A stretch of DNA of 64,000 bases. It comes from Aneurinibacillus sp. GTDB lineage: Bacteria; Bacillota; UBA5301; DYFA01. The position numbers and the translations under genes are program-made. How positions within the stretch are numbered: the first letter of the stretch is position 1; every line of letters begins with the position of its first letter. Where the stretch lies: positions 62,001 through 126,000 of the forward strand of contig DYFA01000016.1 in NCBI GenBank assembly GCA_020725425.1. Reading direction: 5' to 3'. This document shows positions 52,999 through 59,533 of the stretch, piece by piece. The notes under the pieces are model-generated. The model was given only the letters and a program-made list of their open reading frames with translations, made no database searches and was not told where the DNA came from.

Positions 52999-54762
52999 AT
53001 GCGGATGTCGCAGCTTTTTGTTCCGACCTTGCGGGAGGTCCCCGCCGAGGCGGAAACCAAAAGCCACCAGCTCATGCTGCGGGCGGGGCTGATCCGGAAA
53101 GCCATGTCGGGGGTGTACAGCTACCTTCCCCTCGGCTGGCGGGTCATCCACAAGATCGAACAGATCATCCGAGAAGAGATGGACCGGGCCGGCGGCCAGG
53201 AACTCCTGTTGCCGATCGCCCAGCCGGCGGAGATCTGGCGGGAATCGGGCCGGTGGGAAGTCTACGGGGACGAGATGTTCCGTCTCAAGGACCGGCACGG
53301 CCGAGAGCTCTGCCTCGGTCCGACCCACGAGGAGATGGTGACGGTACTGGTCCGGGACGAGGTGCGCTCGTACCGTCAGCTGCCGCTCCTGCTCTACCAG
53401 ATTCAGAACAAGTACCGGGACGAGCTTCGACCCCGCTTCGGTCTGATGCGGGGGCGGGAGTTCATCATGAAGGACCTCTACTCGTTCGACCGGGATGAGG
53501 CCGGACTCCGGGAGAGCTACGCCAGGATGCTCGAAGCCTACAGGCGAGTCTTCCGCCGCTGCGGGCTGGAGGCCCGGGCAGTGGAGGCGGACCCCGGGGC
53601 TATCGGCGGGACCGGCTCTCACGAGTTCATGGTGCTGGCGGAGACAGGGGAGGCGGCCGTCGTCTCCTGCGCCGCCTGCGGGTACGCCGCCAACGTGGAG
53701 AAGGCCGAATGCCCCCCGCCGAAGGCCCATCCCGACCAGGAAACGGCGAAGCTGCCTACGCCGGGCGAAGCGGCGACCGCGGCGGCCGGGCCAGTGCCAG
53801 TCGCCACGCCGGAGAAACGGACGATCGACGAGGTGGCGGCCTTCCTGGAGGTCAGTCCGTCCTCCCTCATCAAGACGCTCTTCTACGAGGTGGAGGGGGA
53901 GCTTGTGGCGCTCCTCCTGCGCGGTGACCATCAGGTGAACGAGTTCAAGCTGGAGCGCCTCGTAACGCCCTCCCGCTGGCGCCTGGCCGAGCCGGCCGAG
54001 GTGGCGCGCCGGCTGGGGCTTCCGGTGGGATTCGTGGGGCCGGTCGGGCTCTCGGAACGGGGCGTCCAGCTCTGGGCGGACCATGCGGTGATGGCCATGG
54101 CCCACGGTATAACCGGGGCCAACCGGGCCGACACCCACCTTCTGGGAGTACGGCCGGGGGTCGACTTCGCCCCTCACCGGGTGTTGGACCTGCGCGAAGC
54201 CGAGGAGGGCGACCCTTGTCCGCGCTGCGGGGCGCCGCTTCTCGGCTCCCGCGGAATCGAAGTGGGCCACCTGTTCATGCTCGGCACCAAGTACTCAAAG
54301 CCGCTCGGCGCCACCTACCTGGACGAAGCGGGGGTGGAGCACCCGCTCGTCATGGGCAGCTACGGCATCGGGGTCGGCCGCACGGCGGCCGCCGCCATCG
54401 AGCAGCACCACGACGCCGACGGGATCGTATGGCCGGTACCCATCTGCCCGGCGGAGGTGACAGTGGTGCCGGTCAATGCCGCCGAGGGGGCGCAGCGGGA
54501 GGCGGCGGAACGCGTCTACGCCGAGCTGGGCGAGGCCGGGATCGAGGCGGTCCTGGACGACCGGGACGAGCGGCCCGGAGTGAAGTTCAAAGACGCCGAC
54601 CTGATCGGCTTCCCCTGGCGGATCACGGTGGGCCCGAAGGGGTTGGCCGAGGCGGCGGTGGAGTTGCGTCATCGGGCCACCGGCCGGACCGAACTGGTCG
54701 GCCTGGGATCGGTGGCGGCCCGGATTCGGGAGGCCGTGGTCCCGGCCAGGGAGGGTCTATGA
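52999..54762 (+). CDS. proS: Prolyl-tRNA synthetase (bacterial type)
   Basis: 587 residues. Class II catalytic motifs: [24 protein letters not shown] (motif 1), TYRDE-type [20 protein letters not shown] (motif 2) and [17 protein letters not shown] (motif 3). The bacterial INS editing domain, YbaK-like, is at about residues 230-395, and an HGTP anticodon domain ends the protein. ATG 52999 is chosen for CAGGAGGAATAG upstream and alignment to [13 protein letters not shown]. The stop overlaps the next gene by 4 bases. Confidence 0.96.
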
Positions 54763-55406
54763 ACGCGTCGAAAGTCCCCTTCTCCGTGATCATCCCCGCC
54801 TACAACGAGGCGCGGCGGATTCGCCGGGTGATCGAGGTAGCCCGGCGGACTCCGGGGGCGGTGGAAGTCATCGTGGTGGACGACGGCTCGGAAGACCATA
54901 CGGCCCGGGTCGCCCAGGGAAGCGGGGCGCGGGTGCTCCGCCTCCCCGAGAACCGGGGGAAGGGCGCCGCCATGCTGACCGGCGCCCAGGAGGCCCGGAC
55001 CGAGCTTGTCCTCTTTCTGGACGCTGATCTTTTGGGGCTGACCCCTGCCCACATCCTGGCGCTGGTGGAGCCGGTGGCGACCGGAAGGGCCGACATGACG
55101 ATGGGAGTGTTCGGCGCAGGGCGGCGGACGACTGATCTGGCCCAGAAGCTGGCTCCCTTCCTCAGCGGGCAGCGGGCGATGTACCGGCAGACCTTCCTGG
55201 CCATCCCGGCGCTGGCAGAGGCGAGGTACGGCGTGGAGGTGGTGCTCTCGGCTTACGCCCGGGAGGCTTCGCTCCGCGTCGAGCGGGTGACGCTGCCCGG
55301 TGTGTCCCAGGTGATGAAAGAGGAAAAGCACGGATTCTGGCGGGGCTTCCTCGCCCGGATGAAGATGTACTGGGAGATCGTGCGTTCGACGTGGTTGTAT
55401 CTGTAG
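54759..55406 (+). CDS. Family 2 glycosyltransferase
   Basis: 215 residues. The GT-A fold opens [19 protein letters not shown], with nucleotide-binding [10 protein letters not shown] and the DxD-like [13 protein letters not shown]. The C-terminus is amphipathic ([16 protein letters not shown]). It may transfer a sugar to a lipid or wall polymer; the acceptor is unknown. ATG 54759 overlaps the proS stop by 4 bases. Its insertion between proS and polC is unusual; those two are normally adjacent. Confidence 0.88.
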
Positions 55407-55422: not shown

Positions 55423-58400
55423 GTGAGTTGGAAAGGGGCCTCGCCTGAGTGGCCGGCCCTCCTTGCGAGGGTCGGCCTTCCGTCTGAGGTGATCGAGGAG
55501 TGGCGGGGAACTCGCCTCCTCGGAGTAATCGTGGAGCGCTCGACCGGCTGCTGGCGGCTGAAGGTGGACGGTCCTGTCCGGCCGGAAATGGTGGCCCGGA
55601 CGGAGCAGTTGTTAACCGCTGGTCTGCCGGGCGTGGCCGTCCGCATCCAGATGGCGGAGAGTGCCGCGGAGGAGACGGCCGCGTCTTTCGACGAGGACGA
55701 AGAAGGAGCCGCCGGTCTCGACGACTGCGAATATTTCCGCCAGGTCCTGGCCTTCCGCCAGGAGACGACACCGACCGAACCCCCGCGGGGTGGCGCCCCC
55801 CGACCGATCATCGGCCGGCCGATTCGCGGGGAAGCCACCCCTCTGGCCGAACTGGAGGACGGCCTGAGCCGGGCGGTGGTCCGCGGCCAGGTGATCGCCT
55901 GCCAGACCCGCACCCTAAGAAACGGCGTCCGCCTCTTCACCTTCGACCTGACCGATTGGACCGACTCGCTGACGGTCAAGCTCCTCGGCGAGGAATTGCC
56001 CCGGGACCTGGAGGAACGGGTGCGGCCCGGCGTCTGGCTCAAGGTCCGGGGGCAGTTGCAGCTCGACCGGTACGCAGGAGAGTCGGTGCTCCTCGCCTCA
56101 GACTTGCAGGAGGAGGCTCCGCCGGCGCTCTCCGACGGGGTCCCGCCCGGCGAAAGCCGGGTGGAGTTACACCTCCACACCAAGATGAGTGCGATGGACT
56201 CCACCGTCGAGGTGGCGGAGGTGGTACACCTCGCCGCAGCTCTAGGCCACGAGGCCGTGGCGATCACCGACCACGGCGTGGTGCAGGCTTTTCCGGACGC
56301 CTGTGAAGCCGGCGACCAGGCGGGAATCAAAATCATCTATGGAATGGAAGGGTACCTGGTCGAGGACGACCGGAGCGAGGGCGACCGGTCCGAGCGCGAG
56401 CGCCCCTACCACTTTTTGGCCCTGGCCCGGAACGAGGAGGGTCTGGAAAACCTCTACCGCTTGGTTTCCGAGAGCCACCTGCAACACTTCTATCGCCACC
56501 CGCGCCTTCCCCGGGCGGCGCTGGCCGCCCGGCGGGCCGGCTTGCTGATTGGGTCCGGGTGCGAGAGCGGGGAGCTTTTCCGCGCCGCGCTGGAGGGGCG
56601 TTCCGAGGAGGAGCTGGCTAGGATCGCCTCGTTCTACGACTTCCTGGAGATCCAGCCGCTCGGTAATAACGCCTTTCTGCTCCGGGAGGGGCGGATCCGG
56701 GACGAAGCGGAGCTGGCCGAACTCAACCGGCGCCTCTACGATCTGGGGCGGCGGCTGGGGCTCCCGGTGGTCGCCACCGGCGACGTCCACTTCCTGCGGC
56801 CCCACGACGCTCTCCTGCGCCAGATTCTCCTCCATGGGCAGGGCTATGAGGACGCCAACCGCCAGGCCCCGCTGTACTTCCATACAACCGCGGAGATGCT
56901 GGCGGAGTTCGCCTATCTCGGAAGGGAGGCCGCCCGGGAGGTTGTCTGCCACAACCCGAGGCGGCTTGCGGCCCAGATCGAACGGCTCCGACCGGTGCCG
57001 TCGACCTTCCACGGCCCCCGGATTGAGGGGGCGGCAGAGCTGGTGCGAGAGACGGCCTGGCGGGAAGCGGTCCGGCGCTACGGGAACCCGCTGCCGCCGA
57101 TCGTCGCCGAGCGGCTGGAGAAGGAACTGACCTCAATCACCACGCACGGGTTCGCCGAACTCTACCTCATCGCCGCCAAGCTGGTGCAGAAGTCGTTGGC
57201 CGACGGATATCTCGTCGGTTCCCGCGGGTCAGTCGGTTCCTCGCTCGTCGCCACCCTCAACGGGATCACCGAAGTCAATCCCTTGGCGCCGCACTACCTG
57301 TGCCCGCAGTGCCGGTACTCGGAGTTCATCGCAGACGGGACGGTCGGGTCGGGTGCTGACCTGCCGGACCGATTCTGCCCGCGATGCGGGACCGCGCTCG
57401 GCAAAGACGGGCACGACATCCCCTTCGAAACCTTCCTGGGGTTCGAGGGGGACAAAACTCCCGACATCGATTTGAATTTCGCCGGCGAGTACCAGCCGGT
57501 GGCTCACCGCTATACCGAGGAACTCCTGGGACCGGAGAACGTCTTCCGCGCCGGAACCATCGCCACCCTCGCCGACCGGACGGCCTACGGCTTCGTCCGC
57601 AAGTATCTGGAGGAGCACAACCGGCGGGCCAGGAATGCCGAAGTGAACCGCCTGGTGCGCGGGCTGGCCGGGGTCAAGCGCACGACCGGTCAGCACCCGG
57701 GGGGCGTGATGATCGTACCGCAGGGGGTGGAGATCCATCGCTTCACCCCGCTCCAGTACCCGGCCAACGACCCGGGGGCAGGGACAGTGACCACTCATTT
57801 CGACTACAAGGCGATCTCTTCCCGCCTCGTCAAGCTCGACATCCTGGGACACGACGACCCAAGCGTCATCCGGATGCTGCAGGACCTCACCGGGTTCGAC
57901 CCGCGGCGGGTACCGTTGGATGACCCGGCGACCTTGGCCATCTTCTCCAGCGTCGAACCGCTGGGTCTCGACCCACAGGCTCTGGGAACGTGCGTCGGGA
58001 CCCTGGGTGTCCCCGAGTTCGGGACGCGCTTCGTCCGCCAGATGCTGGAGGCCACCCGGCCCCGCACCTTCTCCGACTTGGTGCGCATCTCGGGGCTGTC
58101 CCACGGCACCGACGTCTGGCTGAACAACGCCGCCGACCTGATCGCCGCCGGCACCTGCACCATCGCCGACGTGATCGCCACCCGGGACGACATCATGACC
58201 TACCTCCTTTACCGGGGACTCCCACCGAAGGCGGCCTTCGGGATCATGGAGCACGTGCGCAAGGGGAAGGGGCTGACTGACGAGGAGGTGGCGCTGATGC
58301 GCCAGCACGGCGTGCCCGAGTGGTTCATCGCCTCCTGTCAGCGGATCAACTATCTCTTTCCGAAAGCCCACGCCGTGGCGTACGTGACGATGGCCTTCCG

Positions 58401-58887
58401 CATCGCCTACTTCAAGGTCCACTATCCGGCCGCCTTCTACGCCACGTACTTCTCCGTGCGGGCCGACGAGTTCGACCTGGCGTTGCTCGAAGGCGGCCCG
58501 ACGGCGGTCCGGGCCAGGCGGGAGGAATTGGAGCGGAAAGGAAACGGGGCGACGGCCCGGGAGAGAAACGTCGTGACCATCCTCGAGGTGGTCGAGGAGG
58601 CCCTGCAGCGAGGCTTCACCTTCGCTCCGGCAGACCTGTACGCTTCGGACGCCCAACGGTTCCTGATCGTGGGGGAGAAGACCCTGCGCCCTCCGTTGGT
58701 CAGCCTGGCGGGTCTCGGCGAGGCGGCTGCCCAGGCGATCTGTGAGGCACGGGCCGCCGGCCCCTTCACCTCGGTGGAGGATCTTCGGTGCCGGACCCGC
58801 CTCTCCCGGGCGGTCCTCGACGTCCTGCGCACCTACGGCATGCTCGGGAATCTGCCAGAGACGGAACAGATGAGCCTCTTCGGCTAG
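55423..58887 (+). CDS. polC: DNA polymerase III PolC-type alpha subunit lacking the exonuclease domain
   Basis: 1154 residues, versus about 1430-1440 for typical PolC. An OB domain (about residues 145-230) precedes the PHP domain (HLHTKMSAMDS, AITDHGVVQAF, GDVHFL). In normal PolC a DnaQ-like exonuclease with DVETTG-type motifs is inserted inside PHP; here YLVEDD (311-316) runs through an 11-residue linker (317-327) into PYHFLAL. The polymerase is intact: zinc module CPQCRYSEF...CPRCG, catalytic D681/D683 (PDIDLNF), and a beta-clamp motif QMSLF at the C-terminus. GTG 55423 follows GGGGGAGTCGCGG. It is probably the replicative polymerase but non-proofreading. Confidence 0.94.
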   Translation: MSWKGASPEWPALLARVGLPSEVIEEWRGTRLLGVIVERSTGCWRLKVDGPVRPEMVARTEQLLTAGLPGVAVRIQMAESAAEETAASFDEDEEGAAGLDDCEYFRQVLAFRQETTPTEPPRGGAPRPIIGRPIRGEATPLAELEDGLSRAVVRGQVIACQTRTLRNGVRLFTFDLTDWTDSLTVKLLGEELPRDLEERVRPGVWLKVRGQLQLDRYAGESVLLASDLQEEAPPALSDGVPPGESRVELHLHTKMSAMDSTVEVAEVVHLAAALGHEAVAITDHGVVQAFPDACEAGDQAGIKIIYGMEGYLVEDDRSEGDRSERERPYHFLALARNEEGLENLYRLVSESHLQHFYRHPRLPRAALAARRAGLLIGSGCESGELFRAALEGRSEEELARIASFYDFLEIQPLGNNAFLLREGRIRDEAELAELNRRLYDLGRRLGLPVVATGDVHFLRPHDALLRQILLHGQGYEDANRQAPLYFHTTAEMLAEFAYLGREAAREVVCHNPRRLAAQIERLRPVPSTFHGPRIEGAAELVRETAWREAVRRYGNPLPPIVAERLEKELTSITTHGFAELYLIAAKLVQKSLADGYLVGSRGSVGSSLVATLNGITEVNPLAPHYLCPQCRYSEFIADGTVGSGADLPDRFCPRCGTALGKDGHDIPFETFLGFEGDKTPDIDLNFAGEYQPVAHRYTEELLGPENVFRAGTIATLADRTAYGFVRKYLEEHNRRARNAEVNRLVRGLAGVKRTTGQHPGGVMIVPQGVEIHRFTPLQYPANDPGAGTVTTHFDYKAISSRLVKLDILGHDDPSVIRMLQDLTGFDPRRVPLDDPATLAIFSSVEPLGLDPQALGTCVGTLGVPEFGTRFVRQMLEATRPRTFSDLVRISGLSHGTDVWLNNAADLIAAGTCTIADVIATRDDIMTYLLYRGLPPKAAFGIMEHVRKGKGLTDEEVALMRQHGVPEWFIASCQRINYLFPKAHAVAYVTMAFRIAYFKVHYPAAFYATYFSVRADEFDLALLEGGPTAVRARREELERKGNGATARERNVVTILEVVEEALQRGFTFAPADLYASDAQRFLIVGEKTLRPPLVSLAGLGEAAAQAICEARAAGPFTSVEDLRCRTRLSRAVLDVLRTYGMLGNLPETEQMSLFG

Positions 58888-58996: not shown

Positions 58997-59071
58997 TCTT
59001 GATAGGAGGTCCCGGAGGGAGGCCGGCGATGAACGCCCCGGCCGGGTGAGAAATTGCCGGGAGGGCTGGGC

Positions 59072-59533
59072 ATGGAAAGCAGCAACCTGTCCGCCCGGGC
59101 GGCGGCTCTGGGGGAGCCGGTCGCGGCGGAACTCGGTCTTGAGCTGGTGCAGGTGGAGTACAAGCGGGAGAGCGGCGCCTGGTTCCTGCGCTACACCATC
59201 GACAAGGTGGGCGGGGTGACCATCGCCGACTGTGAGGAGTTCAGCCGGAGAGTCGGCCAGGTGTTGGACGAGGTCGACCTGATCCCGCACCGCTACCACC
59301 TGGAGGTCCAGTCGCCGGGAGCGGAGCGCCCCCTGGTCAAGGAGGCCGACTTCGTGCGGTTCGCCGGCTGCTGGGTGGCGGTCCGCCTCTACGGCCCCTT
59401 TGCGGGACGGCGGTCTTGGGAAGGCAAGCTGGTGCGACGGGACGGCGCAGGGCTTACCCTGGAGGTTGAGGGTCAGGAGGTTACGATCCCTAACGAGCTG
59501 GTCAGCCGGGTGAGGCTGGCGGTCAAGTTCTGA
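59072..59533 (+). CDS. rimP: Ribosome maturation factor RimP
   Basis: 153 residues. RimP assists 30S head assembly. The N-terminal domain contains GLELVQVEYKRESGAWFLRYTIDK and CEEFSRRVGQVLDEVDLIP; the conserved HRYHLEVQSPGAERPL joins it to an SH3-like C-terminal domain. ATG 59072 follows GGGAGGG by 6-7 bases; an in-frame TTG at 59054 would add six residues and lacks an SD. Confidence 0.95.
   Translation: MESSNLSARAAALGEPVAAELGLELVQVEYKRESGAWFLRYTIDKVGGVTIADCEEFSRRVGQVLDEVDLIPHRYHLEVQSPGAERPLVKEADFVRFAGCWVAVRLYGPFAGRRSWEGKLVRRDGAGLTLEVEGQEVTIPNELVSRVRLAVKF

Follow-up and report, generated by a model that had tools for sequence, protein, structure and literature searches.

PolCs that lack the DEDDh exonuclease (Exo) domain were described in 2013-14 (Timinskas et al., NAR, PMC3919608), where they made up 6% of all PolCs and 16% of those in genomes that encode PolC together with DnaE1. 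Their hosts were Clostridia and Negativicutes, with one exception in Thermotogae. That study contained no experimentally characterized PolC + DnaE1 system, and it left open how such genomes are replicated and proofread, including whether PolC or DnaE1 performs the bulk of synthesis. In canonical PolC (B. subtilis; S. aureus, 9qpc), the DEDDh Exo sits inside the PHP domain. In the DnaE1 of M. tuberculosis, nine PHP residues hold three zinc ions and either D23N or D226N abolishes the PHP exonuclease; the PolC of G. kaustophilus, in which one PHP ligand is changed, has no PHP exonuclease (PMC5636811).

The PolC analyzed here is encoded in a window of 64 kb (the whole stretch of DNA that was studied). 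It shares with the described variant the PHP, polymerase, HhH and OB domains without the Exo insert as well as the DnaE1 partner, and differs from it in that the N-terminus is also short. The original prediction for this DNA did not decide whether such PolCs were already on record; the study of Timinskas et al. had reported them. With canonical PolC, the protein shares the order of the remaining domains and the type of clamp motif, and the polymerase part of canonical PolC is 50-68% identical to those of the sampled PolCs. The nine PHP ligands, and a loop without an inserted domain at the Exo site, are features in common with M. tuberculosis DnaE1. The latter, however, is a DnaE1 and not a PolC, and its exonuclease has been demonstrated, whereas for the window PolC we infer one.

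Results

The PolC of the window lacks the exonuclease insert

The ORF of 1154 codons (Table 1) scored 1441 bits with the PolC equivalog model NF001688 (cut-off 873) and 1329 with TIGR01405 (cut-off 1043). Because these scores are far above both cut-offs, the ORF is a true PolC. Pfam profiles matched the PHP, polymerase, fingers, HhH and, weakly, OB domains, and no match to the RNase_T domain was found in the protein. It does not belong to the canonical Exo-containing PolCs, as the DEDDh Exo insert in PHP is absent. YLVEDD (residues 311-316) is separated from PYHFLAL (from residue 328) only by RSEGDRSERER, and the ORF, Pfam and a purpose-built Exo HMM all confirmed the earlier claim that the Exo is gone from PolC, with an 11-residue linker at exactly 56371-56403. 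The HMM was built from 71 PolC Exo domains and run on 81 exo-less PolCs and on all frames of the window; it found no match in any of these proteins or in any frame of the 64 kb, which rules out the exonuclease domain in another frame of 55423-58887 that the original prediction had named as a refutation. The gene order polC-rimP-nusA-infB presumably matches that of other Bacillota.

The polymerase and PHP motifs were predicted to be intact, and indeed the polymerase aspartates and all nine PHP ligands are present. D681, D683 and D806 are invariant in an alignment of 29 exo-less PolCs, and so are Q1149 and F1153 of the clamp motif. The shortness of the protein had been attributed to the missing Exo. 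This holds for about 195 residues; the remainder has another source, since in the alignment with S. aureus PolC the window PolC is about 116 residues shorter between the N-terminus and PHP. Several exo-less relatives are also short overall (1130-1172 aa).

In a structure model (AlphaFold2 on the 29 exo-less PolCs, mean pLDDT 83.5), the linker is a low-confidence loop that joins the PHP strands 303-313 and 329-335. Among PDB entries, 3f2b was the best match of the model (TM 0.95, normalized by target length; 54% identity). This chain, of G. kaustophilus PolC, likewise has a short Gly-Ser stretch at the place of the Exo. In 3f2b the Exo was presumably removed by engineering, and the PHP domain has N for D, the alignment placing this N at the changed PHP ligand site of G. 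kaustophilus PolC; in the window PolC, by contrast, the loss is natural and the PHP site complete.

As the window genome is a draft of 72 contigs, an assembly or annotation artefact might conceal the Exo domain. The reading frame is uninterrupted, however, the Exo was not found in any window frame, and the same gap recurs in independent genomes, some of them single-contig, so that we give practically no weight to this possibility.

Table 1. Features of the polC locus in the window and of related loci in other contigs and genomes
Feature	Position	Strand	Basis or remarks
polC	55423..58887	+	1154 aa, Exo-less PolC; GTG start; 20 further open codons upstream
N-terminal region, short, ahead of OB domain	55423..55869	+	S. 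aureus alignment offsets; model
OB-fold domain, about residues 150-231	55870..56115	+	weak Pfam PF01336 match 152-218; model strands 150-231
PHP, first part, residues 248-316	56164..56370	+	ligands H250, H252, D259, H284, E309
Imperfect tandem 15-base repeat, 12/15 identical	56365..56394	+	56365-56379 vs 56380-56394
Linker RSEGDRSERER, residues 317-327, 11 residues	56371..56403	+	place of the ~195-residue DEDDh Exo in canonical PolC
PHP, second part, residues 328-480	56404..56862	+	ligands H330, C380, D454, H456
Polymerase core, fingers, HhH	56863..58866	+	Pfam; aspartates D681, D683, D806
Sliding-clamp motif QMSLF, C-terminal, residues 1149-1153	58867..58881	+	sequence
Upstream neighbour, glycosyltransferase-like ORF	54216..55406	+	identity read from sequence; outside the PolC system
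Downstream genes: rimP-like, then nusA, ylxR, infB	59054..59533 (rimP-like)	+	identities read from sequence
DnaE2-type polymerase and Y-family-like protein	G000:C39:57500-63500 (L050:337-4893)
Sodium:solute symporter, cNMP-CBS-DUF294 protein, 240-aa DnaQ-like exonuclease	G000:C71:14000-22000 (L051:3925-7995)		one strand, adjacent
G131 PolC (L111 / L192), MAG JAAYIC010000112.1	G131:C50:17418-21008		dead Exo
G132 PolC (L193)	G132:C143:37111-40701		dead Exo
G130 PolC (L194)	G130:C164:18836-21949		Exo insert deleted

Distribution of Exo-less PolC

The class of the window comprises seven genomes with five readable PolCs; a sixth, in G006, is fragmentary. The Exo is absent from all five, and their linkers are unrelated in sequence. 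Because the absence is common to all readable PolCs of the class, the loss is evidently old and predates the lineage of the window, rather than being a fresh deletion. These relatives also bear on the DRSE repeat in the linker, which the original prediction had read as a repaired deletion joint. The repeat itself is real, and 15-base matches as good as this one are rare (34 of 21319 window positions). A deletion scar is ruled out, since the class relatives are Exo-less as well and have linkers of unrelated sequence; for the same reason, the repeat is apparently the product of later drift or slippage inside the linker. One same-class PolC (L008, of G002) has an Ala/Pro/Asp-rich linker of 84 residues at the Exo site; this composition and the lack of a match to the Exo HMM rule it out as an Exo remnant.

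The analysis was extended to a phylum sample of about one genome per family (61 genomes, 41 full PolCs). In this sample, 27 of the 41 PolCs were short and Exo-less, as compared with the 6% of PolCs in the earlier survey (PMC3919608). The named exo-less relatives belong to Moorella, Heliobacterium, Desulfosporosinus, Syntrophomonas, Selenomonas, Mitsuokella and Megasphaera. The Bacilli-like class (the class of G028, assigned by tree position only) was notably different: PolC is kept in all 61 genomes of this class, none of the 60 readable PolCs is Exo-less, and in every one of the 60 the frame spans 1429 aa or more. A full Exo insert was present at 29 of the 30 Bacilli-like loci that were retrieved, the remaining one being a misread frame. 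About 15 of the 61 phylum genomes had DnaE matches without any PolC-level match (G007, G014, G015, G016, G024, G025, G029, G030, G032, G033, G036, G038, G049, G054 and G060). For two of these, G014 and G060, which belong to the same genus and are single-contig genomes, neither a PolC nor an RNase_T match was found.

Number and direction of the changes of Exo state

The number of Exo state changes needed on trees of the polymerase part was 8 with FastTree (118 rows), 7 with a quick IQ-TREE run (86 rows), in which the SH-starred branches force only at least 4, and 8 with a mixture-model tree (46 rows). On these trees, the Exo state would thus have switched at least 7-8 times, with the well-supported branches of the quick tree forcing only 4 switches. 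When a single exo-less clade was enforced, the resulting tree was rejected (delta lnL 148, p-AU 1.6e-5). The trees of the Exo domain and of the polymerase agree (Mantel rho 0.63, with 0 of 999 permutations as high), which fits vertical inheritance of the Exo and repeated losses rather than new insertions. In the window's own class, loss as the direction of change is deduced from this agreement, and the evidence is near-direct only in the genus g107. A Limnochordaceae MAG (L064) was among the nearest named rows to the window PolC in the PolC trees.

Decay and deletion of the Exo in the genus g107

Three draft MAGs of g107 (G130, G131 and G132), each from a different species, form one fully supported group inside an otherwise Exo-bearing clade of the careful tree. 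G131 has an Exo insert of 198 residues, in which the five DEDDh positions read A,G,G,G,E instead of DEDHD, a set kept in 70 of 70 other PolC Exo domains. The Exo of G132 is likewise dead, with A,A,G,G,E at the catalytic positions. In G130, a Gly/Pro-rich linker replaces the insert, and both of its ends still match the sister sequences of G131 and G132. In the same tree, the exo-less G130 is sister to G131 plus G132. This topology is compatible with decay of the domain before its deletion, without proving that order. Between G131 and G132, divergence of the insert exceeded that of the polymerase by a factor of 4.1; in pairs with an intact Exo, this factor was 1.5-2.3. The polymerase of the genus has a dN/dS of about 0.08-0.09, that is, it is under strong purifying selection. 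All nine PHP ligands are complete in the three PolCs, and a profile search found no RNase_T match anywhere in the three genomes. No earlier report of such a series from dead to deleted Exo was found in the main text of the open-access papers searched.

These data bear on the possibility that PolC is now secondary, with a DnaE1 with intact PHP performing most of the synthesis or editing in trans, so that the loss of the Exo would be a step towards the loss of PolC. The DnaE-only genomes of the phylum sample are in line with such a course, as is the situation in the Bacilli-like class, where every genome has kept PolC and every readable PolC is full-length and Exo-sized. In addition, Exo-less PolC has been reported only with DnaE1 partners, and the idea of DnaE1 as the replicator of the genome and PolC as an enzyme for special situations has been raised (PMC3919608). 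However, Exo-less PolC is under strong purifying selection in g107 and retains the clamp motif, the polymerase aspartates and all nine PHP ligands, and we regard a secondary PolC as rather unlikely.

Conservation of the PHP metal site

The nine PHP ligands are complete in 76 of 76 exo-less PolCs (D454 included) versus 60 of 71 Exo-bearing ones (p = 2e-4, a value that ignores kinship; L152, a misread frame, was left out of the ligand counts). The failures consist of a D->N exchange at the eighth ligand, and 10 of the 11 are from the Bacilli-like class, in which 10 of the 29 Exo-bearing PolCs carry it. This part of the class thus represents the reverse situation, having lost a PHP ligand and kept the Exo. 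Outside the Bacilli-like class, the ligands are intact in 41 of 42 Exo-bearing PolCs; there, the difference is gone, and we rejected PHP conservation as a hallmark peculiar to PolCs without the Exo. The conservation of the ligands supports the sufficiency of the site for proofreading and not its specificity to exo-less enzymes.

Other polymerases, exonucleases and repair genes

The partner of PolC in the window genome is DnaE1 and not DnaE3, as in the described Exo-less variant. The DnaE1 (contig C18, 1121 aa) scored 1474 bits with PRK06826 (cut-off 1260), and its PHP motifs are intact. MutS and MutL were both found in the genome. A DnaE2-type polymerase of 1017 aa is also encoded (contig C39), and its PHP has N for D; directly upstream lies a Y-family-like protein of 418 aa, the catalytic positions of which appear degenerate by eye. 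A DnaE2-type polymerase beside PolC and DnaE1 is unusual (PMC12926913).

The window genome contains exactly one RNase_T protein, of 240 aa (G000:C71:18038-18517; RNase_T 111 bits). Such a stand-alone DnaQ-like exonuclease could serve as an epsilon-type subunit, a substitute that the original prediction had named beside the PHP domain. It is the sole candidate of its kind here, and it fits the PolC Exo models as well as the DnaQ models. However, it fails the dnaQ_proteo and epsilon equivalog cut-offs (93 vs 222.7 bits and 90 vs 196), and its gene adjoins those of a CBS-DUF294 protein and a sodium:solute symporter, an unrelated cluster. Moreover, no RNase_T match was found in nine exo-less genomes, that is, the class relatives G001, G002, G003 and G005 as well as G018, G021, G022, G027 and G041, of which G021 and G027 are single-contig. 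Small stand-alone RNase_T proteins are no more common with exo-less PolC (15 of 27 genomes) than with Exo-bearing PolC (8 of 14; p = 1.0), counts that refer to matches of the RNase_T profile, which divergent exonucleases outside RNase_T could escape. Because nine exo-less genomes are RNase_T-free and there is no enrichment, a separate DnaQ would not be a general substitute, and its service as an epsilon-type subunit is improbable. A DEDDh nuclease next to a transporter, as on C71, is a puzzling combination. In the main text of the open-access papers searched, we found no earlier report of genomes that have an exo-less PolC and lack every DnaQ-like exonuclease.

Discussion

Of the two substitutes proposed for the lost Exo, a DnaQ-like protein found little favour, as most class relatives are RNase_T-free, and the PHP domain is preferred: by elimination and by conservation, it appears to be the best remaining candidate for the proofreader. 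We consider it probable that the enzyme is an ordinary PolC in which the PHP site is the proofreader that remains, backed by a DnaE1 with intact PHP and by MutS and MutL. For the window PolC, we infer the PHP exonuclease activity. An ancestor would have lost the DEDDh Exo from a loop of PHP, and the loop would have closed into a short linker with the PHP fold intact. The PHP domain would bind a metal cluster and remove mismatched 3' ends, as the DnaE1 of M. tuberculosis and the DnaE of Thermus do. The Exo would then be superfluous, and its loss would be tolerated in any PolC that has kept an active PHP and works with a PHP-active DnaE1 beside it, mismatch repair by MutS and MutL being a later, additional check.

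One argument against PHP proofreading is that nearly all Exo-bearing PolCs outside the Bacilli-like class have conserved the ligands as well, so that this conservation may be a matter of structure or of age. The role of PHP could be a structural one, such as PMC3666897 describes for E. coli Pol III alpha. In that case, PolC would be unproofread and replication more error-prone, with reliance on mismatch repair, the genes for which are present in the window genome. Nine ligands that are invariant in 76 proteins are hard to explain by structure, however, and a structure-only PHP is implausible because the DnaE1s of alpha-, beta- and gamma-proteobacteria have lost the nine ligands (PMC3919608). 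Unproofread replication therefore seems highly improbable, and PHP proofreading is the reading that we retain.

The Exo-less kind of PolC and the suggestion of a secondary PolC were already known (PMC3919608). New are the counts of Exo absence across a class and at the scale of the phylum, the repeated changes of state, the g107 series, the complete PHP sites in all 76 exo-less PolCs and the RNase_T-free genomes. A wider generalization, the truth of which we consider evenly balanced, is that in much of the Bacillota, the Bacilli-like class excepted, PolC would depend on PHP alone for proofreading during replication, next to a DnaE1 that is likewise proofread by its PHP, and that DEDDh proofreading would have been discarded many times along a recurrent route of catalytic decay followed by deletion, of which the dead-Exo and deleted-Exo species of g107 would be an instance. 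Exo-less PolCs, some of which occur in genomes without a recognizable DEDDh (RNase_T) exonuclease, make the PHP hypothesis directly testable, as the enzyme retains a single editing site.
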